NCBI GenBank assembly: GCA_027371625.1
Contig: DAHXMQ010000165.1
Location: 1 to 13,515 of the forward strand
Direction: 5' to 3'
DNA length: 13,515 nt
Source of the DNA: Candidatus Methanoperedentaceae archaeon
GTDB lineage: Archaea; Halobacteriota; Methanosarcinia; Methanosarcinales; Methanoperedenaceae
Part shown: in pieces, positions 1 to 12,898 of the stretch
Numbering within the stretch: position 1 is the first letter of the stretch
Layout of the letters: every line of letters starts with the position of its first letter
Position numbers and translations under genes: made by a program
Notes under the pieces: model-generated
What the model saw: only the letters and a program-made list of their open reading frames with translations
What the model was told of the DNA's origin: nothing
The model's database searches: none

Positions 1-778
1 GAACGTTTGTTTTACCGCAATATGCACATTTTCTCTGGTATTTTTCCAGAAGGTATTCCCTGATTTCATATCCATGGAGTTCCCCCTGCTGATATTCTAT
101 TCCGGATATTTCAGGATTCTGCAGTTTCTGCGTATCGAAAGAAGCAACCTGTACCGTTATGCCTGTTACTGGAAGGATTTCGTTGATTTTGTTTACCAGG
201 TTGGTATGTGTCTGCAGTTTGTGTTCGATAGATGGAGCTAACCATCCTTCTTCAATACTTCTGTTACTGAATCTTGGCTCTCTGTATGGATGATGCCTGC
301 TTCTCCGGTTTCTCCTGTACGTTCTTCGTTCTGTTAGTTTGTTGGAGACGTCTGTTCGGATGGTAACTTCACCTGATATCAGTTCTTTCTTGCCTGATAC
401 TGCCGAGAATCCAACAGTGGAATAGCCTGGTTTAATTCCCAGTTTAATGGGTTGTTTGTTCTCACCTGTAGCATAGTTCAGTTGTATCGTGAACGGCATT
501 CTCTTCACGATTTTGGCTTTTCCCTGTTTCAGGAGTCTTGCTGCTTTTCCGGGCGTTGTTGGCATTAACGGTTTTCCACGCATATTTATGACATATACAA
601 CAGGGACTCTCAAGTCCTGTTTCCTATGTCCGGATATGTCCACATCGGAGTCGTTAGAAGATGTTTTTAAATCCGTCACACTGAGAGTTTCCTCTCTGTT
701 TAATACCGGATCACAGTTGCCACAGACTTGTGGAGCATCTGTAGGTGTGTATGTATTTCTTTCCTCTAACTTCTGCAT
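1..778 (-). CDS. iscB: IscB-family RNA-guided nuclease (RRXRR/PLMP domain), C-terminus beyond window; RuvC residues substituted
   Basis: The first 259 residues are visible. A roughly 65-residue N-terminal extension includes a CGNC motif (19-22). The PLMP domain follows (KPLMP at 69-73, then LLKQGKAKIVKRMPFTIQL). RuvC-I is LGIKPGYSTVGFSAV (113-127), the arginine-rich bridge helix spans about 150-170, and RuvC-II is ITVQVASFDTQ (207-217). The conserved NPEISGIEYQQGELHGYE leads into the HNH start CAYCG (251-255). IscB proteins use an omega RNA encoded just upstream to guide DNA cleavage and travel with IS200/IS605-like elements. Family members normally have Asp in RuvC-I (GIDPG) and Glu in RuvC-II (VEVASFD). 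Here these are Lys115 and Gln210, so RuvC is predicted inactive while HNH could still nick; its catalytic part lies outside the window. The ATG at 778 is the first Met after an in-frame TAG and has GGAGG about 10 nt upstream. Confidence 0.92.
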   Translation of the reverse strand, partial: MQKLEERNTYTPTDAPQVCGNCDPVLNREETLSVTDLKTSSNDSDVDISGHRKQDLRVPVVYVINMRGKPLMPTTPGKAARLLKQGKAKIVKRMPFTIQLNYATGENKQPIKLGIKPGYSTVGFSAVSGKKELISGEVTIRTDVSNKLTERRTYRRNRRSRHHPYREPRFSNRSIEEGWLAPSIEHKLQTHTNLVNKINEILPVTGITVQVASFDTQKLQNPEISGIEYQQGELHGYEIREYLLEKYQRKCAYCGKTNV

Positions 779-793
779 GTTTTTGTATGCCTC

Positions 794-860
794 CTAATCA
801 ACCAGTTATCCACGTTCCTCACAGGACATGCCCCTGTCTTTAGACAGGGGTGATTGACAA
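794..860 (-). ncRNA. Structured iscB leader element, probable part of the omega RNA (copy 1)
   Basis: Read on the minus strand, this 67-bp block ends 15 nt before the iscB start. It opens with a perfect 8-bp hairpin, CCCCTGTC-TAAA-GACAGGGG. A second stem follows, CATGTCC pairing with GGAACGTG around a TGTGA loop with one bulged A, and AATCA/TGATT can close the whole. Copy 2 matches at 56 of 67 positions, and a T-G pair in the second stem becomes T-A there, which supports an RNA fold. In known IscB loci the omega RNA lies in exactly this upstream position. The 5' end, including any guide, would lie further upstream (860 to about 1000). A TATA-like stretch sits at 942-951. Confidence 0.6.
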
Positions 861-1619: not shown

Positions 1620-1654
1620 GAACCCTCTCCCAGTTGAAGTTGGGGAGAGGGTTC
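1620..1654. terminator. Strong 12-bp hairpin, possible terminator or repeat palindrome
   Basis: GAACCCTCTCCC (1620-1631) pairs perfectly with GGGAGAGGGTTC (1643-1654) around an 11-nt loop. On the plus strand it is followed by AAGTTTTCT, a weak T-tract. No gene on the plus strand ends just before it, so a terminator role is uncertain. It could also be a mobile-element end or a boundary for the regulatory region to its right. Confidence 0.4.
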
Positions 1655-1662
1655 AAGTTTTC

Positions 1663-1787
1663 TGTCAAACTGCTTCCAGCCTATCGATTTGACAGTTATT
1701 TTGACAATTTTTGACAACTCGCTTGACGGTTTTTGTCAAATCGCTTTCCGCATATCGATTTGACAGTTGTTTTGACAATTTTGACAG
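1663..1787. promoter_or_regulatory. Cluster of TGTCAAA/TTTGACA motifs in two 55-bp direct repeats, possible operator array
   Basis: Two direct repeats, 1663-1717 and 1734-1787, lie 71 bp apart (about seven helical turns). Each begins with TGTCAAA, continues through TATCGATTTGACAGTT and ends with two more TTTTGACA motifs. That gives inverted TGTCAAA/TTTGACA pairs flanked by direct copies, plus a related TTGACG at 1723. The array ends about 28 bp before the TATA-like box of the first gene of the pilus locus. This suggests cooperative binding by a transcription regulator. The motif also resembles a bacterial -35 box, which is probably a coincidence here. Confidence 0.5.
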
Positions 1788-1844: not shown

Positions 1845-2366
1845 TTGAAAAAAACCGTTTTAATTCTTAGTATTATTATAATTATTGCATCGGTGGGATG
1901 TGTATCCCGGACCAGCAATCCGCCCGTGAGTGGAAGCAGCCAGACGCCTTTTGCCTCGGCAGGCGCTGGTTCGAATGTCTGCACAAACCCTGCGCCGCTG
2001 GAACACGTATATCATCCTTACAGGCTTGCGGTCATTGATTCGTGTAAGACAGTATCGGGCACAGTGACAAAAATAATCAAGGAAAAAGACGGGGATACCC
2101 ATATCAGGCTCAATGTTGATCCACAATATGCGGATACCATTAACCAGGCTAACATCGACGGGCAGGATGGGTATCTTGTGCTTGAAATCGTCTGCGCCTA
2201 TCCGGTTACGCAGAAGGATGCAGTCAGCGCGTGTGCCGACTACGAAAACGAGATAGCCGTGCCTGCTGTCAATGAACATATCACGGTTACCGGGCAGTTC
2301 GTCTCAGATACCGATCATGGGGGATGGAATGAAATACATCCTGTGTATCAGATAATCGAAAGTTAA
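1845..2366 (+). CDS. Secreted lipoprotein, OB-fold-like hypothetical family
   Basis: The 173-residue product starts at TTG, with GGAG ten bases upstream; the nearby ATG at 1835 runs straight into a stop. The N-terminus (MKKTVLILSIIIIIASVGC) is a lipoprotein signal with the lipobox SVGC and Cys19 as the likely lipidated residue. A Ser/Pro-rich linker reaches about residue 50. The rest alternates short beta-like strands: CKTVSGTVTKI, DTHIRLNVD, GYLVLEIVC and EHITVTGQFV, ending in HGGWNEIHPVYQI. This pattern resembles an OB-fold-like family of archaeal and bacterial lipoproteins ending in HGWxEIHPV; no biochemical role is known to me. Four further cysteines (45, 67, 115, 127) could form disulfides outside the membrane. 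It lies 17 bp before ATPase 1 and probably shares its transcript, so it may be a surface accessory of the pilus or an unrelated passenger. Confidence 0.8.
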   Translation: MKKTVLILSIIIIIASVGCVSRTSNPPVSGSSQTPFASAGAGSNVCTNPAPLEHVYHPYRLAVIDSCKTVSGTVTKIIKEKDGDTHIRLNVDPQYADTINQANIDGQDGYLVLEIVCAYPVTQKDAVSACADYENEIAVPAVNEHITVTGQFVSDTDHGGWNEIHPVYQIIES

Positions 2367-2383
2367 AATCACAGAGGTTTATT

Positions 2384-4870
2384 TTGCAGACATGTAAGCA
2401 TGTACTAAAACAGGTTGAGAGCAATCTTGCCAATGTTCGGTCGAGGTCGAGAACCATCAACGTACTTGAGATTAACTGCATGCGTTCTGATCATATAGCA
2501 GGATGCTGCGGAATGCCATCGCTATCCAGCGCTGCGTGCAGGGAAGGAGTGCTCGAAATTCTCGCTTCCTGTACCAGGGAACGGATAGAACTTATCTCAT
2601 TCAATTACGTCGAAAATGGCTCCGTAATGAAACACGATATAATAGAAACCGCTGCGGTTGAACTCCAAAACCTGTCTTCCTATCGTAAAAATGCAATAAA
2701 TGTGATAAACCGGGCGCTTGAGATGAGTCTGAACTCAAACCACACCGAAAAGGACGCTTCTTCCGTCCATCTCTGCGAACTGTGTGGTTCAATGCAGAAA
2801 AGAGAACTAGAATCACTTGCCAATGCAATAAAACGGAACCCGCTTGAAGCCAGGGAATCCATAATTCGCAACAAGGGCTTCATGTCGATGTTTCAACGAA
2901 TTAATAAAACTGCTAAAAACAACGGATGCGGCGCCTGTTCGGCAAAATTCACTGCCGCATACCTGTCTCCCCTGAAAGGTTTTCCTATGAATCCTTTCTA
3001 TAAAGATTACGCTTACGCATCGGAAAATGATTACGGCAGCCTGTTTGCGGGAACGAACACGAAAATCGGCGAGAAGCCTATCTATGCCGATACGAGAAAC
3101 CGATTTAAAACCGTGCTGCTCGGTCCTTATGACGTAAAAGGATACCAGATATGCATAAGAAAAAACCAAAAAACCGTTTCAGGTCACGACATAGACTCAA
3201 GTGATTTTAACCTCTACCAATATTCGGTCAGTCTCAGTGCAAGAAACATTTTGTTTCTAAAATCGCTCTCTGAAGACGTAAAAAACGAGATACTCACGAA
3301 AAGCAGGTCAACGCACACGAAAAGCCCCGAAGACCTGAGAGCTGAACTGTCGGGCATATCGTTACAACTGCTTGATAGAGCAATCAGGAAACCCGAATGG
3401 GACGACCTTGCGGACATGTCGCCAGAAGAAAAGAATGCAATTGCGTGGATGGCAGTTGATAACATCGTCGGATACGGCGGAGGCGGATTCGGGATATACA
3501 CTCCCCTGATATACGATACAAACGTAACGGATTTCGAGTTAAAAGAAGTCGCCGATGACGTATATAAATTAACGTGCCGGCACCTCTACTCAAGGCCGAA
3601 AAAAATGTGTGTGGTAGATGCGGAAATAAACAAGACAGAGGTAGAAAACCTCGTCAAGAACATCGTTCCGAGAATAGCAGGAAGCGCTGGGGATACTGCT
3701 TTATTCAAGAACAATACTCTGGAAACCGCTGGCGAAATAAAAGGCGTAGGTAAAATCAGGTGCACCATAAACAGGCCGCCTATAACCAAAGGATATCACG
3801 TAGAGATCAGGAAACACTCAAGAAGACTCAGCATACCGGAACTCATGGCGTTAGGAGAAGCTTCTGCGGAAACCTTTTCATTGCTCTGGATATTTTCGTT
3901 GCTATCCAGAATGAGCGTAATGTTCGTAGGTCCCGTAGGATCGGGGAAAACCACGCTAATGTTAGCATCGCAGGCAGGCGCTCCGCAAAGTCTCGTATGG
4001 GGCGTGATAGGTGACATAGATGAACTGCAGGACATCAGCGGCGACAGTGTGTTGTTTAAAACCGAAGCAGGAGATTCAAAATCGAGGGATGGTGTGAGAA
4101 ATAAACTGCTCAGAAAAAGAAAAGACAAAGTCATCGTGCAGGAGATAAGGAATAAGACAGACGCAGAAGATTACATCAAACAGAGACTTCAGGGCGAAGC
4201 CATACTCAGCACCACGCACGCAAGAAGCATCAGCGAACTCGTGGACAGGTTTAAGTTCGATTTCCAGATAGCAGAAGAAACCGTGTATAAGAACGTAGAC
4301 GCCGTAGTTGTCATGAACGAACGCGACCGGCAGGTCATTGATAACATAGGCATCATGCAATACAGTGATGTTGAAAACTACAGTAATGCCCAAAACCAGT
4401 CTCGGAACGGGCATAAAAACAATCGCCCCGTGAGTACTGGCAAGGACGGCGAAGATAAAAAAGAAGATGCGGGCGATGCGTATAAGATATACAACCTGTT
4501 AGAATACGATTATGAGAGGAACACGTGGCGCTGGAAAAACAAAAAAGGCGAAACCGTGGATTTTTTTTCAGCTCTCGCCGATCTGAGTACGGTAACATGC
4601 ATCCACAATGCCCTGAGAATGCAGGAGATTCCACTCAGCAGGCAGAATTTCATAGACCTCGCCAGCATCGGCACCGTCGCAATAAATGCTCTCCTTATGA
4701 AGTGTTTTAAAAAACAGCCGCAAGGGATATATGTACCCATGATGAGCGACAAGGGAATATTTCAATTAACCAGGGAATGCCTCCAGACGGCGTATGATTT
4801 GTACATTCACGGTGGTCTTGATAGGACTCTTGCGATCGAGAGGCTGGTGACGTGGCTAAAAGAAAATTAA
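2384..4870 (+). CDS. Type IV pilus/archaellum-type secretion ATPase 1, divergent, with paired CxxC motifs
   Basis: The 828-residue protein belongs to the VirB11/TadA/FlaI/GspE ATPase superfamily and should power filament assembly from the cytoplasmic face. The Walker A loop GPVGSGKTT is at 516-524, an Asp-box-like GDIDELQD at 543-550, the Walker B region VIVQEIRNK at 583-591, and the His box ILSTTHARS at 607-615. Canonical members read VGE[VI]RG at Walker B; Gln586 and Asn590 replace the usual glycines while Glu587 is kept. The N-terminal ~480 residues are long for the family and contain CELC (131-134) and CGAC (182-185), spaced as a possible zinc site. A charged low-complexity insert (about 668-697) precedes a C-terminal helical domain. 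The TTG start has AGAGGT eight bases upstream; the next Met is residue 33. The gene overlaps platform protein 1 by 19 bp. Confidence 0.9.
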   Translation: MQTCKHVLKQVESNLANVRSRSRTINVLEINCMRSDHIAGCCGMPSLSSAACREGVLEILASCTRERIELISFNYVENGSVMKHDIIETAAVELQNLSSYRKNAINVINRALEMSLNSNHTEKDASSVHLCELCGSMQKRELESLANAIKRNPLEARESIIRNKGFMSMFQRINKTAKNNGCGACSAKFTAAYLSPLKGFPMNPFYKDYAYASENDYGSLFAGTNTKIGEKPIYADTRNRFKTVLLGPYDVKGYQICIRKNQKTVSGHDIDSSDFNLYQYSVSLSARNILFLKSLSEDVKNEILTKSRSTHTKSPEDLRAELSGISLQLLDRAIRKPEWDDLADMSPEEKNAIAWMAVDNIVGYGGGGFGIYTPLIYDTNVTDFELKEVADDVYKLTCRHLYSRPKKMCVVDAEINKTEVENLVKNIVPRIAGSAGDTALFKNNTLETAGEIKGVGKIRCTINRPPITKGYHVEIRKHSRRLSIPELMALGEASAETFSLLWIFSLLSRMSVMFVGPVGSGKTTLMLASQAGAPQSLVWGVIGDIDELQDISGDSVLFKTEAGDSKSRDGVRNKLLRKRKDKVIVQEIRNKTDAEDYIKQRLQGEAILSTTHARSISELVDRFKFDFQIAEETVYKNVDAVVVMNERDRQVIDNIGIMQYSDVENYSNAQNQSRNGHKNNRPVSTGKDGEDKKEDAGDAYKIYNLLEYDYERNTWRWKNKKGETVDFFSALADLSTVTCIHNALRMQEIPLSRQNFIDLASIGTVAINALLMKCFKKQPQGIYVPMMSDKGIFQLTRECLQTAYDLYIHGGLDRTLAIERLVTWLKEN

Positions 4871-6825
4871 GAATCCAGGATACGCTCTTTGACTCTGAAA
4901 CCGTGCATCTGCCCGAAAAAGAGCGGAAACTAAAACTGCACAGGTACGCGCTGCCTCCTAATTCAAACAGGCAGCAGATCAGGCTGCATGCAGAAATCGA
5001 CGAGTTCGCCAAAAGCGCACGGTTCTGGGATAAATATGCCCAGCGAATACCGCCCGTAGTGTATTTTTCCGAATGGTTCGCTTCCAGGAGAGGGGGGCAG
5101 CTGCGAAAAAACGTTGAGTACATAAATAAGAACATACATTCTTTCGATATTACGCCCAGAATGGTATACAATAAAACCATACTGGTCTTCCTGCTATTCG
5201 TGTTTGCCGGGTACTTCTTCAGCGTAGTGATAGAAAACCCGATGGTAAAACTCATTGTAATTGCGATATTTTTCCTTCTTGGACAGAGAGTGTCTGCGGA
5301 TACTTTGAACAAGATAAAGGAATGGGCAGAACCCGATTATGCGGAAAAGCTCGTGTACAATATAGCGCTCGTGAACGAAGCTATAATGTGCTACGGACCA
5401 ACACAGCTTCTCGACCACGTCGCCGGAAATCGCGCATTTGGTCCCATTGCAGTTGAGTTCTCTGAACTCATAAAAGAGATACACCTGCAGAAACTTAATC
5501 CATTTGATGCTATCATCAACTGGAGCGAGAACCAGGACCTTGAATCGTTAAGGGACGTGGGCAAGATAATGCGCCTGAAGGAAGCCGGCTCTCCTATCGA
5601 TATGGATTTCTTCGTTAACCGCGCAAAAAGAGACAGCCTGCGGGCTATAGAAAGGGAAACGAAAAAAGCAAGCGTGAACCAGAGTGTTATGAATATCATA
5701 AGCATCTCGCTTCCTTTAATGTTCGCTTTTGGCATCCCGTTCTATTACATACTATACCTGAAACCATGGATCCGAATACTGCCGATGGGCGCAATCCTGA
5801 TACCTCTTGCCCTCACCATATTCGAATGCGCTGCATACCATTTCATCATAGGCAAGATATTTGGGGATAAGGTCTTCAAAAGCTATGGTAAACTCATTGG
5901 CGATGTCAAGTTTTCGACCAACTGGAAAGACAGCATTACGTCCGATATGCTAAACAGGAACAGGATAAGTATAGGATTTCTTGGATTCGTCGCCGTTCTG
6001 CCAATGGCATTCTTTGCCGGAAGCGAATGGTTCGGTATTGCCGTTATGTCCGGCATGTTTTTTTTCATATCAATGCCGTATTTTTATTCGAGGATGGGAG
6101 AGGAATTCGCGGATATATCGAGCCACGAAGAACTCGCGGAAGAAATCAAAACCATTATCAAACATTTTCACGACAACAGCCATTTAAACGCATTTGTCGT
6201 CTTCAAATCACTTCCAGAAAAGATGGGCGGCCTGAAAGACGTTATAAATTACTACGTGAAAGAAGTCGAACTCGGAATGAGCGTAGAGAAAGCGCTCACG
6301 AACCTCGCCGACTGGATTGATTATAAAACCGACAGGAGCGCGATATTACTCACGGACAGATTAAGAAGAACGGCGGAATTGCTCATAGAAAACGACCGGG
6401 AACTGAGGCTGAAACGCATCCTGGAAGAGATCGCCGCCGTCCGGGAAGCGCAGCAGGATAGAGAAACTTCGTTTGCAGAAGCAAAAACCGAACGCTCTTA
6501 CATATCCATGTACTTCATGCCGCTGCTTCTTGGCTTCTCCGTATTTTTTGCTGTCATCCTGGTAAGCGTAATGCAGATGTTCAATGTAGGATTGAGTTCG
6601 CTCCTGCCAGGCAGAACGACGCTTGGCTTTGGGGCGATAGTAAAAGACAGCGTTAATAACATTCGGTGGATAGTTTTCAGTCAGGGTGCATTGAATCTCA
6701 CTATAGCATGGAAACAAAGCGATAAAAAGAATCTGTTAAAGACCGTTGCAATCGCTACCGTAATATATTCAATAACGGCTACGCTTGCGTTCTACTTTGC
6801 ATCGCACCTCCTGCCAACTTTTTAA
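4852..6825 (+). CDS. FlaJ/TadC-type pilus membrane platform protein 1
   Basis: The 657-residue polytopic protein should be the inner platform that couples ATPase 1 to pilin insertion. Hydrophobic segments lie near 108-145 (two), 280-302, 308-333, 372-412 (two), 551-577 and 628-652. They flank two cytoplasmic helical domains (about 150-275 and 415-545), the duplicated T2SSF arrangement seen in archaeal platforms. The second domain includes DVINYYVKEVELGMSVEKAL, typical of the family. It starts at GTG inside the end of the ATPase gene, with the 19-bp overlap indicating translational coupling; GAGGCTGGTGA lies just upstream. The first ~100 residues are hydrophilic and charged. The gene ends 15 bp before an IS605-end-like hairpin, after which a new promoter serves the pilins. 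Confidence 0.88.
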   Translation: MAKRKLRIQDTLFDSETVHLPEKERKLKLHRYALPPNSNRQQIRLHAEIDEFAKSARFWDKYAQRIPPVVYFSEWFASRRGGQLRKNVEYINKNIHSFDITPRMVYNKTILVFLLFVFAGYFFSVVIENPMVKLIVIAIFFLLGQRVSADTLNKIKEWAEPDYAEKLVYNIALVNEAIMCYGPTQLLDHVAGNRAFGPIAVEFSELIKEIHLQKLNPFDAIINWSENQDLESLRDVGKIMRLKEAGSPIDMDFFVNRAKRDSLRAIERETKKASVNQSVMNIISISLPLMFAFGIPFYYILYLKPWIRILPMGAILIPLALTIFECAAYHFIIGKIFGDKVFKSYGKLIGDVKFSTNWKDSITSDMLNRNRISIGFLGFVAVLPMAFFAGSEWFGIAVMSGMFFFISMPYFYSRMGEEFADISSHEELAEEIKTIIKHFHDNSHLNAFVVFKSLPEKMGGLKDVINYYVKEVELGMSVEKALTNLADWIDYKTDRSAILLTDRLRRTAELLIENDRELRLKRILEEIAAVREAQQDRETSFAEAKTERSYISMYFMPLLLGFSVFFAVILVSVMQMFNVGLSSLLPGRTTLGFGAIVKDSVNNIRWIVFSQGALNLTIAWKQSDKKNLLKTVAIATVIYSITATLAFYFASHLLPTF

Positions 6826-7025: not shown

Positions 7026-7547
7026 GTGAAAATGTTTAACGAAAAGAAACTTCAAAATAAAAGAAAAAATGTGCTGAAAGACGATTCCGCGGTATCTCCG
7101 ATGATCGCAACCATCCTGCTGATAGCAATAGTAGCTGTGCTGGGGGCTGTGATTGCAGCAAGCTCTATGAAAAGTGCAGGGAACATGGAAACCCAGAGCG
7201 TAACTGCGACTCTGACCGCTGAACAGCAAGCGCCTGGTGTGTACAATATCACGATCATCCACGACGGCGGCGACCAGCTAACCGCATCAGCACTGGAGTT
7301 TTCAGTCACGAATGGAGAGAATTCCGCAGTAGTACTTGAGAACTTCTCGGCTGCAATAAACACATCAATCGGTCCCATAATATCCCCGTCGTCTGTCCCG
7401 TCTCATTTCACTGCGGGTAGTTCAATCATATTCAATGGTACAACGAACTCTCCAATAGGCACGCTTACATCCGGCAGCACATACCACGTACTGGTAATGT
7501 ACAACAACAAGCAGGTGCTTCTGGATACAAACGTCCTGTTGAGTTAG
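7026..7547 (+). CDS. Archaeal type IV prepilin (Pilin_N-type), likely major subunit
   Basis: The 173-residue prepilin has a positively charged leader, then DDSA|VSPMIATILLIAIVAVLGAVIAA. The prepilin peptidase should cut after Ala22 (counting from the GTG), and residues 27-46 form the hydrophobic helix that packs into the filament core. The VSPMIA motif is the hallmark of the archaeal Pilin_N family. The rest is Thr/Ser/Asn-rich with beta-strand character (GVYNITIIHDGGDQ, GSTYHVLVMYNNKQVLLD), as in other archaeal pilins, and N-x-S/T sites suggest glycosylation. Translation starts at GTG 7026 or ATG 7032; AGGAGGA at 7014-7020 serves either. It has its own promoter and leader dyad and is followed at once by a strong terminator, so it should be made in larger amounts than its neighbours. 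Confidence 0.88.
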   Translation: MKMFNEKKLQNKRKNVLKDDSAVSPMIATILLIAIVAVLGAVIAASSMKSAGNMETQSVTATLTAEQQAPGVYNITIIHDGGDQLTASALEFSVTNGENSAVVLENFSAAINTSIGPIISPSSVPSHFTAGSSIIFNGTTNSPIGTLTSGSTYHVLVMYNNKQVLLDTNVLLS

Positions 7548-7595: not shown

Positions 7596-8426
7596 ATGTC
7601 CGTTTATATTGATATTCGATCATCCCTGTCAAAAGGCAGGGGCATGTTCCGTGAGGACGACAGCGGCTTAAGTGAAATGATCGGTTTTATGTTCATTCTT
7701 GCAGCCATTGTTATATTCGCTTCCGTAGTCTATCCCGCAATGGTAAGAAACGATATCAAAACCGCTGAAAATAATGCTTTTTCGAACATCTATGCGAAAA
7801 TGCTTCAGTTCTCGGACGATATGCAGAGTGCAACGGCGGGGCAGACGAGTTTCCAGCTTACTTCGGCACAAGAACATTCTTCGGCGAGCACATCCAGTCT
7901 TGTATTCCAGCCCGATACCGGGACTTTCGTCATAACCACAACGAACCATTCAACATACGCTCCTCCATATGCCGGCGAACCGCAGTCGGGTTTGATTACA
8001 ATTACGCCGAACAACTTCTTTGCAAAGAACATTATAACCGCTTTTCAGCTTGGTGCAGTAGTCGAGGAGCAGGATAATAAATACTGGTCGAGCACATCGA
8101 GTTTTCTATCAATCATCGGCAGGAACGTTACGGCGCAGTTTCCCGTCTTGACGGGAGGATTTTTGAGTTCCAGTGGAGGAACCGTAACCTTAAAATATAA
8201 TGTCGTAAACATGTTTGATATAAATGATACGAATACAAATGCGGTTATCGTGATAAACACTCCCTATCCCGATGTTTTTGAAAACGCATTTCAGAATGAT
8301 ATGAATCGTGCTGGGTTTACAAGAAACACTGATTATATACTCACGGAAGGAGCAAATGCAGTAACGCTGCATTTAAAAAATCTTAATTCCATTAATATTA
8401 AAGTAATAATATGGTCAGTGAGTTGA
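7596..8426 (+). CDS. Second, larger archaeal type IV prepilin
   Basis: The 276-residue protein carries DDSG|LSEMIGFMFILAAIVIFASVVYP, with predicted peptidase cleavage after Gly24 and a hydrophobic helix at about 31-47. The ectodomain is Ser/Thr/Asn-rich with beta-strand-like stretches and several N-x-S/T sites. It resembles haloarchaeal prepilins with SEVIGFVL-type N-termini and probably acts as a minor, tip or adhesive subunit. Two starts are possible: ATG 7596 (24-residue leader) and ATG 7644 (8-residue leader, MFREDDSG). The DNA from 7616 to 7657, around the second start, is a copy of the iscB leader element, so the extra 16 residues may be a by-product of that element, not original pilin sequence. 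The gene ends six bases before ATPase 2. Confidence 0.82.
   Translation: MSVYIDIRSSLSKGRGMFREDDSGLSEMIGFMFILAAIVIFASVVYPAMVRNDIKTAENNAFSNIYAKMLQFSDDMQSATAGQTSFQLTSAQEHSSASTSSLVFQPDTGTFVITTTNHSTYAPPYAGEPQSGLITITPNNFFAKNIITAFQLGAVVEEQDNKYWSSTSSFLSIIGRNVTAQFPVLTGGFLSSSGGTVTLKYNVVNMFDINDTNTNAVIVINTPYPDVFENAFQNDMNRAGFTRNTDYILTEGANAVTLHLKNLNSINIKVIIWSVS
7616..7657 (+). repeat. Copy 3 of the iscB leader element, overlapping the pilin start
   Basis: It matches copy 1 (minus strand of 816-857) at 36 of 42 positions and copy 2 (minus strand of 1376-1417) at 35 of 42, without gaps. The hairpin TCCCTGTC-AAAA-GGCAGGGG (7623-7642) is kept, with two G-T pairs. GGGGCATGT(T)CCGTGAGGA follows, then similarity stops. 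The ATG at 7644, an alternative pilin start, lies inside the conserved part, and the AGGGG before it is in the hairpin's 3' arm. Relative to the downstream ORF, its orientation is the same as copy 1 relative to iscB. Confidence 0.72.
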
Positions 8427-8432
8427 AAAAAA

Positions 8433-11171
8433 ATGTTTAATATTTTCAAACGGTCTCGCCTTAACACGAACGCAGGCATGGTAAATGCCGAGCATCGCGC
8501 CCCTTTAAAGCTCAAACTGGATTTTTTAGAATGCACTGACTTGGAAGAAAGTGAAAGCGAAACTGTAGATAACGATCTCATCATACTTCCCTCGGATGGA
8601 TTGTTTGTCATTGAGAACGCCAAAGAAGCCGATAATGTAACTGAGAAAAAAGACATCAAATCAGGTGCGCCCGCTCATCCAGAAGAAAAGATTGAATTTA
8701 ACGTTGATGAGTTTAACGTTACTGAGTTTCTGAAGAACGTTGATGATTTTCAGAAATCTGTCGAAATAAACAGTCTTGAAAACCATCCGTTTTTTCCCGT
8801 GCCCAATGAGACACCAAAAATTAACGGCGCAGATGATATCGGTGCAGATGAATACGAGGAACAGGTATCACATCCACCCATATCTGAATTGGAGTCGGGA
8901 GATGCTAAAAACGATAGCCGATATAATGATGTTCTTCCACAGATACTCGATCTTGCAAGGGGAGACCCGGCAAATTATGGATGCGAAAAACATTCCCTGA
9001 GAAAGCTAAGAACGTTTTTATTTGAAAAAGGAATTGTAAAAATAAGCCACGAAACCCTGAGAACGCTGCTGGCAGATAACGGCATTAAGTGGAATGGAAA
9101 TGATTGCCATAAACCGAAAAAGAAGCCAAAAGAAAAAATTGTGATTATAGATCGTCACGTCCCACCTTCCCTTCATGCGCAGGCTACGCATGCATCAATC
9201 AACGAAAAAACCGAAATAAAGGAACCTGAACCCGCAGCTAAGATAGAGGTTATTGAAAAAGCAGAACCCATACAAAAACCCGAGCAGCCTTCTTTTACCA
9301 AGCCCCCGCTTGTGAATACAGATATTCCAGCAGAAAAGGAAATTGCACAACAAGGACCTACGGCAAAAGAGATTGAACTCGAAGCCAACGTACGAGAAAT
9401 AAAAGCCGAGCTTGATGGAATAAAAACGGGAATCAGTGAAATTAAAGCTGCACAGGACCGCAGAGATGATCAAAGCCAAACCCTGATTAAATCGTCCGAA
9501 ATCGTGGAAAAGAAAAAAAACAATGTCCAGCACGGCATCGATACCGAATCCATGATTGAAAACGGTTCAAAGAAAGGAACCGGGGATACTTTAGTCGTGA
9601 AATCATACGGTACGTTCATTTTGAACGATTACGTGAAAAACAGGATAATGATTCAGGAAACGGATGCGCATTCCGCGGTGAGCAGCGCCGTGATAAATGG
9701 CAGGGAGAAACCGGAAGAAAGTGAAAAGATATTGAGCGGTGCGTCTGGCTCACAATCTGATATATACGTCCCTCCCTGTATAAAGAGCGAAATGAACAAC
9801 ATAAAATCGTTTGGCGCGGATTTTGACCCGACGAAACTCAACGTTATCGACAGCTATAGTCTGCCCAACCCGATTGAAAGCCCTACGGTTTACATCGTAA
9901 AAGATGGATATAAACTCAGATATTTGATAAAAGAGCCTGTTAAACCTGCGACGTACGGCAGCGTGCGGGATGCGATTCTCAGGAACGTTGATCTCTATAA
10001 ATCGGCTGAAGAAGACCCAGTCGCCAGGCTGGATGCAATTGTTAATCGGCTGAAAAAAAAATACCCCGAACTGGCTGAACTGCGCGTTGACGAAGAACGT
10101 GCTCTAAGATACTACCTGTTCCGGGATTTTATAGGATACCGGGAAATAGACGTTCCCATGAATGACGATAATATCGAAGACATTACCTGCGTAGGCTATG
10201 GCATTCCCGTATTCATATATCACCAAAAGTATTACAATTTGGTCAGCGATATCGTCATGCACGAACGCGAACTCGATGCTATGGTTCTGCGGCTTGCCCA
10301 GGAAGGAGGCAAACATATCAGTATAAGCGATCCTATCGTAGATGCTACGCTCAGGAACGGCACACGCGCTCAGTTGACGTTCAAAAAAACCGCGACCGAA
10401 AAAGGTTCCACATTCACCTTAAGACGGTTCAGGAACAGCCACATAACTCCTGTTGACCTGATAGAAAAAGGCACGTATAGTCTCGAAGCCATGGCATATC
10501 TATGGCACTGCGTCCAGAGCGGAAAAAGCATTATAATCGCTGGAGGCACGGCAACGGGCAAAACCACGAATCTCAATGCGTGCAGCCTGTTCATACCGCC
10601 CGAAGTCAAAATCGTGTCCATAGAAGATACGAGGGAAATAAAGCTGTATCAGAAAAACTGGATTCCCAGCACCACGACAAAAGACATTGATACGTTCGGG
10701 CTGCTCAAAGCCGCGCTGCGCCAGAGACCCGAATATATCATAGTTGGCGAAGTGAGAGGGAAAGAAGCGCAAACGCTGTTCCAGGCAATGACGTCCGGAC
10801 ACGTTGTTATGAGTACGTTTCACGCAGGATCGGTAGATGATTTAGTCAACAGGCTTACCAGCTCCCCGATAGACGTACCAGCCGCCATGCTTGAAAGTCT
10901 CGATATCATCATCGTTCTCAAGAACGAATGGACGAATGCGTCCAGCAGGCACAGGTATGCAGATGCCATTTACGAACAGCAAAAAATCAAAGGCGTACCG
11001 AGGTTCGTGAAAATATACGATCATGAGGAAGGATTGTCGGCATCGTTGATTACCCATGAAATAAAAAATAAGATAGATTGCCTGTCTTCATTGATGGAAG
11101 AAGGCATACGAAATCCCGATAAGGTCAGCGAACGGGTCATTTCACAGATGTACGCTGCAGGCGAACAATAG
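8433..11171 (+). CDS. Secretion ATPase 2 with long N-terminal extension carrying a transposase-like HTH
   Basis: The 912-residue protein ends in a canonical VirB11/TadA/FlaI-type ATPase (about 480-912). Walker A is GGTATGKTT (704-712), the Asp box SIEDTREIKL (729-738), Walker B IIVGEVRG (769-776) and the His box VMSTFHAGS (792-800). It should drive pilus assembly with the adjoining platform protein. The first ~450 residues are unusual: a basic start (MFNIFKRSRL), an acidic disordered stretch (35-160), then ILDLARGDPANYG...HSLRKLRTFLFEKGIV-KISHETLRTLLADNGIKW (171-220), which resembles the winged HTH of IS630-type transposases. KPKKKPKEK (227-235), a Pro/Glu/Lys-rich stretch and a predicted coiled coil (311-345) follow. 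It begins six bases after the pilin stop and ends two bases before platform 2. Whether the HTH binds DNA is unknown. Confidence 0.9.
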   Translation: MFNIFKRSRLNTNAGMVNAEHRAPLKLKLDFLECTDLEESESETVDNDLIILPSDGLFVIENAKEADNVTEKKDIKSGAPAHPEEKIEFNVDEFNVTEFLKNVDDFQKSVEINSLENHPFFPVPNETPKINGADDIGADEYEEQVSHPPISELESGDAKNDSRYNDVLPQILDLARGDPANYGCEKHSLRKLRTFLFEKGIVKISHETLRTLLADNGIKWNGNDCHKPKKKPKEKIVIIDRHVPPSLHAQATHASINEKTEIKEPEPAAKIEVIEKAEPIQKPEQPSFTKPPLVNTDIPAEKEIAQQGPTAKEIELEANVREIKAELDGIKTGISEIKAAQDRRDDQSQTLIKSSEIVEKKKNNVQHGIDTESMIENGSKKGTGDTLVVKSYGTFILNDYVKNRIMIQETDAHSAVSSAVINGREKPEESEKILSGASGSQSDIYVPPCIKSEMNNIKSFGADFDPTKLNVIDSYSLPNPIESPTVYIVKDGYKLRYLIKEPVKPATYGSVRDAILRNVDLYKSAEEDPVARLDAIVNRLKKKYPELAELRVDEERALRYYLFRDFIGYREIDVPMNDDNIEDITCVGYGIPVFIYHQKYYNLVSDIVMHERELDAMVLRLAQEGGKHISISDPIVDATLRNGTRAQLTFKKTATEKGSTFTLRRFRNSHITPVDLIEKGTYSLEAMAYLWHCVQSGKSIIIAGGTATGKTTNLNACSLFIPPEVKIVSIEDTREIKLYQKNWIPSTTTKDIDTFGLLKAALRQRPEYIIVGEVRGKEAQTLFQAMTSGHVVMSTFHAGSVDDLVNRLTSSPIDVPAAMLESLDIIIVLKNEWTNASSRHRYADAIYEQQKIKGVPRFVKIYDHEEGLSASLITHEIKNKIDCLSSLMEEGIRNPDKVSERVISQMYAAGEQ
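8697..8726 (+). repeat. 15-bp in-frame tandem repeat in the ATPase 2 extension
   Basis: tttaacgttgatgag is followed directly by tttaacgttactgag (13 of 15 identical), encoding FNVDE FNVTE. The nearby AACGTTGATGA at 8736-8746 is a further partial echo. It indicates slippage growth of the disordered acidic region. Confidence 0.6.
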
Positions 11172-11173
11172 AA

Positions 11174-12898
11174 ATGCAAACACCGGATAGTCTTCAAAAA
11201 GTCCGCGGTTACATACTGGCGCACGCCAGGAACCAGGGCTGGTATCATGGATTGGACAGGGCAGTCGTATCCGCCAGAATGAAAACAATGACCGACGACT
11301 ATGTTATAACAGCCACAATGGTTTCGTGCGCGGCGGGGCTTGCGGGTATTGTGGTTTCTTTTTATATATATCTCTTATTCCACGGAAGCCTCGCTGCTAT
11401 CCCTCTAATAATACTTATCCCGTTTCTCCTGTACTATGCATCATTCACATTTATCACGGCATACCCTGGAATGATAGCCATGGAAAGGGGAAAAATCATT
11501 GACGAAAAAATGCCTGCATTCGCAAGCCACATGGCAATAATGCTGCAGAACAACGCTTACCTTCTCGATGCATTTAAATACATCGAGAAGTCGAATCTTT
11601 ACGGCGAGATCGGAGAGGAAATCGGGATAATACTCAACCGCGCTTCGTTCAACATCAATTTCGTCGATGCAATTAATTACGTTGCGGCTACCACGAGCAG
11701 TTATGAACTGAGAAAGTTCCTGAATGGCATCGTGGAAACCACGACTAATATCGGTACGCTGGACACTTATCTCAGGAATGCGTCGGAAAATCTCAGCCGA
11801 TTATCATTGATCAAGAACAGGGATAACGCACAATCCAGGGCATCGCTGGTCGAGATATACACGATTGCGATGGTAATGATGCCACTTATGATACTTCTGA
11901 CCCAGATGACAACGGCATTGATGGGGCAGGAAATAGCAATAGGCGGCATTATGGTATATGGCTACATTCCTCTGGGAACCCTGGTTTTTATACTGATCGA
12001 AGAACGAAGCGTTAAGATGAAAGTGGACGAAAAAAAGGGGGCAAATGATAAGAAAAAAGGAAAAGAAAAACACGCAGTGGGTTTGAAAGAAAAAGTCCAT
12101 ATGCACGAATATCTTAGAACGGAAGACGGGCTCATCGTAATAGGGATTTTCATTGCACTGCCGGTTTTTTATATCCTGTACCTGAGCAATTTTGGCATAG
12201 ACACCGTCCTGCTTGTTTTCTCTGCAATTGCCGTACTCCCTTATGCTGTATACTGGCATATCGAATTAAACAGGATCAAAAAAGAAGAAGAAGTGATGCC
12301 GGTTTTTTTAAGGAACGTATCTGACAGAAACAAAATGGGATTTGGAATAATAGAAATATTCGAGCCGTCTCCCGTATACGAAAACATAACGAAAAGAGTT
12401 GATAAAATATATCATTCACTAAAGATGGGCGAAAATCTTGAAACTGCTATCGAAGTATTGAAAGACAAACGAAGCTTTATAATGACAAGGGCTACGGTGA
12501 TAATAAACGACGCTCTGCGCGCAGGTGGAAACATAAATAAAGTGCTTGAAAGCGTGGCAGAAGATATCCAGAACCAGTTCAATACATATCGTGAAGTCGA
12601 AGGAGACATGAAACGTAACACCAAGATGATAATGGCAACATATTTTCTCTTTATCGGGATAGTCTGGATAATAAACAACATGTTCTTCAAATCGCTTGCA
12701 GGCATGACAAGCAGCGCACACTCCCCGCTGCCCATAGATATCGTATATTACAAACAGTTGTTCTATCACGGCAGCGCACTTGCAGGAATATCTGCGGGTC
12801 TTGTTATGGGAAAATACGAAAAAGGCGACCCGCGTCCAGGTCTGGTGTTCAGCGCAGTGTTTGCGCTCATCACAGTAGTGGCTTTCAAGTATATTTAG
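11174..12898 (+). CDS. FlaJ/TadC-type pilus membrane platform protein 2
   Basis: The 574-residue polytopic membrane protein partners ATPase 2. Hydrophobic segments are near 45-67, 72-96, 226-248, 254-276, 316-336, 342-361, 485-505, 530-547 and 556-573. Two helical cytoplasmic domains lie between them: about 105-220, with MPAFASHMAIMLQNNAYLLD, and 365-480, with LKMGENLETAIEVL and NDALRAGGNINKVLESVAED. That is the T2SSF duplication typical of archaeal TadC/FlaJ proteins. A lysine-rich loop (281-308) separates the halves. It starts at ATG two bases after the ATPase 2 stop, with no strong ribosome binding site, so coupled translation is likely. It is shorter than platform 1 by about 80 residues, mainly because it lacks the long charged N-terminus. 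It closes the pilus gene run. Confidence 0.88.
   Translation: MQTPDSLQKVRGYILAHARNQGWYHGLDRAVVSARMKTMTDDYVITATMVSCAAGLAGIVVSFYIYLLFHGSLAAIPLIILIPFLLYYASFTFITAYPGMIAMERGKIIDEKMPAFASHMAIMLQNNAYLLDAFKYIEKSNLYGEIGEEIGIILNRASFNINFVDAINYVAATTSSYELRKFLNGIVETTTNIGTLDTYLRNASENLSRLSLIKNRDNAQSRASLVEIYTIAMVMMPLMILLTQMTTALMGQEIAIGGIMVYGYIPLGTLVFILIEERSVKMKVDEKKGANDKKKGKEKHAVGLKEKVHMHEYLRTEDGLIVIGIFIALPVFYILYLSNFGIDTVLLVFSAIAVLPYAVYWHIELNRIKKEEEVMPVFLRNVSDRNKMGFGIIEIFEPSPVYENITKRVDKIYHSLKMGENLETAIEVLKDKRSFIMTRATVIINDALRAGGNINKVLESVAEDIQNQFNTYREVEGDMKRNTKMIMATYFLFIGIVWIINNMFFKSLAGMTSSAHSPLPIDIVYYKQLFYHGSALAGISAGLVMGKYEKGDPRPGLVFSAVFALITVVAFKYI

Follow-up and report, generated by a model that had tools for sequence, protein, structure and literature searches.

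The closest described relatives of the protein studied here are the archaeal type IV pilus ATPases (PilB3/FlaI-type, VirB11 superfamily), which have a T2SSE motor and adjoining TadC and pilin genes. Motors of the FlaI/PilB type work as hexamers, and in related motors the cytoplasmic N-terminal extension is a docking place for regulators. The second point of reference is the IS630 transposase family (NF033545; HTH_29/HTH_32), which has two consecutive helix-turn-helix units and a DDE catalytic domain. According to the available part of a census, some methanomicrobial pilus ATPases carry Cys-rich N-terminal domains (PMC4858521). In the genus Methanoperedens, HMp plasmids possess SMC ATPase, DUF2250, primase and VirB11 genes, and the accessible portion of that report describes no helix-turn-helix fusion for them (PMC9674854). 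Subscription papers and preprints aside, the open-access literature, including the available part of the census, yielded no report of a transposase-derived DNA-binding domain in a pilus or secretion ATPase.

The stretch analysed here (the window) is one entire contig of 13,515 bp from a 1.91-Mb archaeal bin that is 69% complete. One strand carries, in order, a lipoprotein-like ORF, a first pilus-type ATPase (ATPase 1), a 657-aa protein, a pilin, a DUF7289-type protein, a second ATPase (ATPase 2) and TadC (Table 1). As in the archaeal type IV pilus ATPases, ATPase 2 has a T2SSE domain above the Pfam cut-off (E 3.4e-32, 111.9 bits vs 24.9) together with adjoining pilin and TadC genes, the latter starting 2 bases after its frame. 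Moreover, it retains the invariant motor columns in an alignment of 32 ATPases (the window protein, 29 loci from among more matches listed and two of its own genome). Unlike these relatives, it contains neither PilB3_N nor PilB3_C at E<=0.5, whereas the two domains were detected in 26 and 30 of the 32 ATPases scanned, respectively, and membership of the PilB3 subfamily was rejected for this reason. Its best NCBIfam model was the archaellum motor FlaI (NF058587), and an identity as FlaI was also rejected, because 286 bits is well below the cut-off of 550.

Table 1 Features of the window (positions in the 13,515-bp stretch; residues refer to ATPase 2)
Feature	Position	Strand	Evidence
Candidate control region: two 60-bp direct repeats with TGTCAAA-N18-TTTGACA and TTTTGACA boxes	1652..1786	.	
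Small lipoprotein-like ORF, first of cluster	1845..2366	+	No Pfam match; lipoprotein by eye
ATPase 1, second divergent pilus-type ATPase	2384..4870	+	T2SSE E 1.6e-12
Membrane protein of 657 aa, possible platform for ATPase 1	4852..6825	+	No Pfam match; multi-pass by eye, position
Archaeal type IV pilin	7026..7547	+	PF07790 E 7.7e-11
Pilin-like DUF7289-type protein	7596..8426	+	PF23960 E 8.8e-4, 19.3 bits vs cut-off 27; counterpart in nzgw24
ATPase 2, 912-aa pilus-type secretion ATPase with helix-turn-helix domain	8433..11171	+	Uninterrupted open frame; T2SSE match
Acidic N-terminal linker, residues 1-162	8433..8918	+	Net -22, pI 4.3; poorly conserved
IS630-type second helix-turn-helix, residues 163-221	8919..9095	+	IS630 models, profile searches, profile-profile comparison
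Basic Lys-rich tail, residues 222-235	9096..9137	+	Sequence; net +4; Lys cluster in nzgw24 too
Possible coiled coil in second linker, residues 302-369	9336..9539	+	Weak BicD match, E 0.007, below cut-off
T2SSE motor core, residues 654-813	10392..10871	+	Pfam T2SSE; invariant motor columns
TadC-type platform protein (T2SSF)	11174..12898	+	PF00482 E 2e-19

Within the order, even the best match to ATPase 1 was distant (E 1.8e-13, 31% identity), and Cys pairs were seen by eye near the N-terminus of ATPase 1. In the plasmid collection, the matches listed for ATPase 1 were bacterial ATPases with 22-30% coverage, and the 657-aa protein had no match there. No HerA/VirB4-type DNA pump or relaxase was found among the window ORFs scanned, on a contig that ends on both sides, and RdfA was not found in the 69%-complete bin. 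An origin of the cluster from a mobile element is unproven. At the contig start, positions 2-858 (-) hold an IscB RNA-guided endonuclease gene, open at that end (NF040563, 274 bits vs cut-off 175), with its HEARO/omega RNA at 633-858 (116.6 bits). Copies of the HEARO-end sequence at 794-858 and 1354-1418 form a direct repeat (85%), and an inverted 42-nt copy (83%) lies at 7616-7657, at the beginning of the DUF7289-type ORF. The copies look like remnants that an IscB element left behind in the cluster.

The N-terminal extension of ATPase 2 comprises about 480 residues and runs from an acidic linker through a basic segment (residues 163-235; net +7, pI 9.7) into a second linker, whose residues 236-460 are again acidic (net -8). 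Residues 1-162 had no match to a helix-turn-helix family in Pfam. Residues 163-221 read RYNDVLPQILDLARGDPANYGCEKHSLRKLRTFLFEKGIVKISHETLRTLLADNGIKWN and contain all three strings that the original prediction had quoted for an IS630-like helix-turn-helix, and the Lys-rich flank that it described is the tail listed in Table 1.

The IS630 model NF033545 matched a 107-aa piece holding the segment at E 8.2e-5 (22.2 bits, cut-off 100) and the whole of ATPase 2 at E 0.0018 (17.7 bits), while Pfam HTH_32 matched ATPase 2 at E 0.011 (16.7 bits vs cut-off 33.7). The IS630 model also picked out the segment when the genome of the window was scanned in six frames (E 3.1e-4). A second copy was present in 'Candidatus Methanoperedens sp. 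isolate nzgw24' (GenBank JAHFDG010000037.1), with E 9.4e-4 for the IS630 model, 5.4e-4 for HTH_32 and 0.02 for HTH_Tnp_Tc3_2. Because the IS630 and HTH_32 scores lie far under the curated cut-offs, they indicate a remote domain match and not family membership. NF033545 aligned to the segment only over model positions 64-127 of 299, the remaining protein being linker and T2SSE, and of the two IS630 helix-turn-helix units the segment matches the second only. ATPase 2 was rejected as an IS630 transposase because it reaches 22.2 of the 100 bits and lacks the first helix-turn-helix and the DDE catalytic domain. The likeness to the family includes the ISHET-R pattern of the recognition-helix core, which is ISHETLR in the segment and ISHETVR in a transposase of the genus. 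When eight genus transposases were aligned with the segment, the closest were identical to it at 18/73 and 18/69 positions, about a quarter. That the segment was copied recently from a transposon in its own genome is unsupported, since it found itself alone at E<=10 there and the nearest genus transposases match at just these positions.

Searches in the opposite direction used a profile built solely from the window and nzgw24 sequences. Scanning 31 genus genomes in six frames, it found 18 non-self places at E<=1; nine overlapped IS630 loci when coordinates were compared by eye, and the top four (E 6.3e-5 to 0.010) were all IS630 loci. Among 392 sampled genomes of the phylum, the 10 non-self places at E<=0.01 comprised seven IS630 N-termini, two HypF-like proteins and one that was neither, with protein names assigned by eye except in G023, which was in the IS630-model scan. 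The HypF-like matches (E 4.9e-4 and 8.1e-4) were taken as chance, so single E-values of such size are no proof alone. Profile-profile comparison with genus Methanoperedens transposases gave 95.6% for six close IS630 ORFs, 95.3% for all 14 and 3.7% for the remaining eight. The controls gave 0.25% (winged-helix partner of RdfA), 0.14% (RdfA) and 0.14% (ATPase N-termini), and 30 column shuffles gave at most 0.88%. At the level of sequence, the resemblance to IS630 exceeds chance and the segment is a homologue of the second helix-turn-helix of IS630 transposases. The proposed IS630 likeness was thereby borne out by the model match, the profile-profile comparison and the reverse profile scan. The wider claim of a transposase domain within a pilus ATPase also stood as to homology and absence from the other pilus ATPases examined; it had to be amended in that only the second unit is present, within the long extension.

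AlphaFold2, with an input alignment of two sequences only (window and nzgw24), predicted four helices in the window copy (residues 168-176, 179-182, 189-199 and 206-215; pLDDT 71.4) and five in the nzgw24 copy (pLDDT 74.0). In both copies, the predicted helices sit where a helix-turn-helix requires them. Foldseek returned no significant match with either model (best E 2.1 and 3.5). The VIA lists placed helix-turn-helix domains of ArgR (5.5 and 5.7), sigma-54 (5.7), Fur and PadR high, and also contained the Sleeping Beauty RED subdomain (3.7) and the ISCth4 transposase (4.1); these matches were interspersed with unrelated helical proteins, and all were below the reliable level of the tool. The structure comparisons agree with a helix-turn-helix but do not prove one. 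Structure prediction, which the original prediction had named as a check, thus supplied the expected kind of helices and no significant structural match by Foldseek; the helix-turn-helix match itself came from the profiles, the structure search alone being non-significant.

A search of 185 genomes of the order with an 86-aa segment gave two strong matches (E 1.5e-56 and 4.5e-25), and the next was at 0.0115. The domain therefore occurs in 2 of the 185 genomes, both from the genus Methanoperedens (2/31 genus genomes). Additionally, HTH_32 was detected in only one of the 32 ATPases scanned, that of the window itself. These two counts led us to reject the segment as a conserved pilus-ATPase domain; it was not found throughout the pilus ATPases of the clade, and the remark that no standard N-domain of such ATPases has this pattern holds among those examined. 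A genome-contig scan for the domain found nzgw24 only. In the plasmid collection, 11 records matched the segment, all at E 0.3 or worse, and four of them were annotated as IS630 family transposase; in the phage collection, there were 12 records, with the matches listed at E 9. Neither the domain profile nor ATPase 1 nor the 657-aa protein had a match in viral contigs. ATPase 2 as a whole matched eight plasmid records partially, and those listed cover the motor core.

Between the window and nzgw24, residues 163-221 are identical at 37/59 positions, compared with 29 of 113 aligned positions for residues 34-155. The nonsynonymous difference was 0.22 in the domain and 0.51 in residues 1-155, with a synonymous difference of 0.79 in both, which is near saturation. 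Because the domain is far better conserved than the preceding linker, it is kept by purifying selection, as a maintained part of the protein and not debris.

In nzgw24, the genes before the homologous N-terminus encode a pilin, a protein recognised by eye as a surface beta-helix protein and a DUF7289-type protein. The ORF ends after 470 aa, before the motor core, where it overlaps a primase-like fragment on the opposite strand (L067:4254-5171 (-); PF01896 E 0.028, below cut-off) that occurs once in the nzgw24 genome. Both a decayed or rearranged locus and an assembly join are possible causes of this end. The motor core and the junction to it are consequently unconfirmed in nzgw24, and this copy was accepted as a partial and not a full orthologue. 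Further upstream are an integrase and Orc1/Cdc6, the latter separated by ABC-transporter genes (by eye) from a 140-aa IS630-like ORF; the same region also holds RdfA, an SMC-like protein and a DUF2250-type winged helix. The 140-aa ORF (L066:10568-10990 (+); NF033545 E 3.3e-10) is a stand-alone DNA-binding ORF with no catalytic domain, directly upstream of RdfA and the SMC-like gene. Only six of the order's 185 genomes have RdfA, and the SMC-like gene adjoins it in five other loci (L130, L133, L135, L136 and L137, besides L066). In L135 and L136, the pair adjoins gas-vesicle-like genes (by eye), and in L130 (pMETHO01) it lies near a pilus-type ATPase. According to part of a published report, RdfA and Sph3 are cell-shape factors in Haloferax, with genes neighbouring in numbering (PMC13286277).

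Relatives of the SMC-like protein occurred in 129 plasmid records at E<=1e-5, three of them with coverage >=80%, and include pMETHO01 and a Methanohalobium evestigatum plasmid. Because these neighbours are shared with plasmids, the nzgw24 copy sits among plasmid-typical genes, on a contig that starts with ribosomal protein L15e and other chromosomal-type genes (by eye). The surroundings also resemble the HMp plasmids of the same genus, going by the available part of their description, in having SMC ATPase, DUF2250, primase and VirB11 ATPase genes (PMC9674854). On pMETHO01 (L161, NC_019972.1:54000-72000), a HerA-like gene and a series of hypothetical genes are oriented divergently, the series closing with a T2SS/T4P/T4SS-family ATPase. 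This cluster possibly serves plasmid DNA transfer in Methanosarcinales, and genes similar to it were seen on G184:C40.

The repeats of the candidate control region lie about 60 bp upstream of the first ORF of the cluster, and their TGTCAAA-N18-TTTGACA motif had two matches against 0.01 expected. Among 31 genus genomes, the region had only short matches elsewhere, of about 36 bp or less; a 29-bp match in contig C294, the best outside one, lies beyond the repeats and was set aside as uninformative. The nzgw24 locus has a palindrome of its own before the pilin and the following ORF (L066:14243-14264 and about 15070-15090), and both upstream regions have TTTCTTGTTAATATTAAT shortly 5' of a TATA-like ATAAAATATAAATA. 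The TTTCTTGTTAATATTAAT regions are a possible operator of the nzgw24 pilus locus. The window repeats were absent from the nzgw24 stretch searched, and the palindrome was absent from the window. A shared operator therefore failed as proof of autoregulation. Being locus-specific, the repeats and the palindrome reveal no shared target, and the domain is tied to neither.

Another IS630-related fusion was found in Methanoperedens. In the piece scanned of a 1123-aa frame (L099, G012:C60), PAS domains come after HTH_32 (E 1.2e-13). This fusion shares with ATPase 2 the genus and the family from which the DNA-binding domain came, but it keeps both helix-turn-helix units and its partner is a sensor, not a motor. 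Judged by its domain matches, it is a second transposase-domain capture in the genus. Moreover, both the 1123-aa frame and a 1121-aa frame in a second genome of the genus (G008:C43:16138-16428) match the IS630 DNA-binding region.

We consider it probable that a captured IS630 half-domain, most likely still contacting DNA, links the pilus motor to DNA. The second, RED-like helix-turn-helix would have been captured into the long and presumably mostly disordered extension of an archaeal pilus ATPase and retained by selection. Since the motor would be hexameric, six copies of the domain on flexible linkers could grip DNA multivalently. The DNA in question may be the motor's own control region, which would mean autoregulation, or DNA that the pilus or the host element handles, and ATPase 2 would be the motor of an accessory, possibly element-borne pilus. 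Continued DNA contact is the best-supported reading because the recognition-helix core is kept, the segment and its tail are basic and the domain is constrained. Also in its favour are the helices modelled for the two copies, the high places of helix-turn-helix proteins in the VIA lists and the IS630-PAS fusion in the same genus. Counted against it are the retention of half of a bipartite domain, the non-significant Foldseek results, the 3.7% with eight IS630 ORFs, the lack of a shared target and the occurrence of the complete fusion in one contig only.

Its main rival, which we regard as rather unlikely, takes the IS630-derived helix-turn-helix to have no function on DNA and to serve the motor now in protein docking or oligomerisation. 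The use of such extensions for docking regulators in related motors, the loss of one IS630 unit and the lack of a DNA target common to the window and nzgw24 loci would suit this role, but a nearly unchanged recognition-helix core and a basic charge flanked by acidic linkers argue for DNA. That a helical domain came to resemble IS630 through convergence, not descent, is very improbable: although every score is below its curated cut-off, Foldseek gave no significant match and two HypF-like proteins reached similar E-values with the two-copy profile, both search directions lead to the IS630 family, including 7 of the 10 phylum-scan places, and 95% in the profile-profile comparison stands against at most 0.25% in the controls. 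We find it hardly credible that the fusion is an assembly join of a helix-turn-helix gene and an ATPase gene. The full protein is known from one contig of an incomplete bin, and the truncated nzgw24 ORF with its primase-like overlap leaves the junction without a second instance; yet the window frame is open throughout, with the TadC gene close behind, and both assemblies have a DUF7289-type gene directly before a similar domain-bearing N-terminus.

The captured domain suggests, by its sequence, that ATPase 2 can grip DNA. If DNA is indeed its ligand, an element-borne motor might recognise the DNA of its own element and carry that DNA to the base of the pilus for transfer, or might sense pilus assembly and report it to the operon promoter, needing no separate coupling protein or regulator; we think such built-in coupling clearly unlikely. 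An archaeal protein has captured an IS630 DNA-binding half-domain, making two such fusions in the genus Methanoperedens. If the domain binds DNA, a surface-filament motor and DNA would be joined in one polypeptide, and the link between pili and DNA would be directly testable with a 90-residue protein piece.
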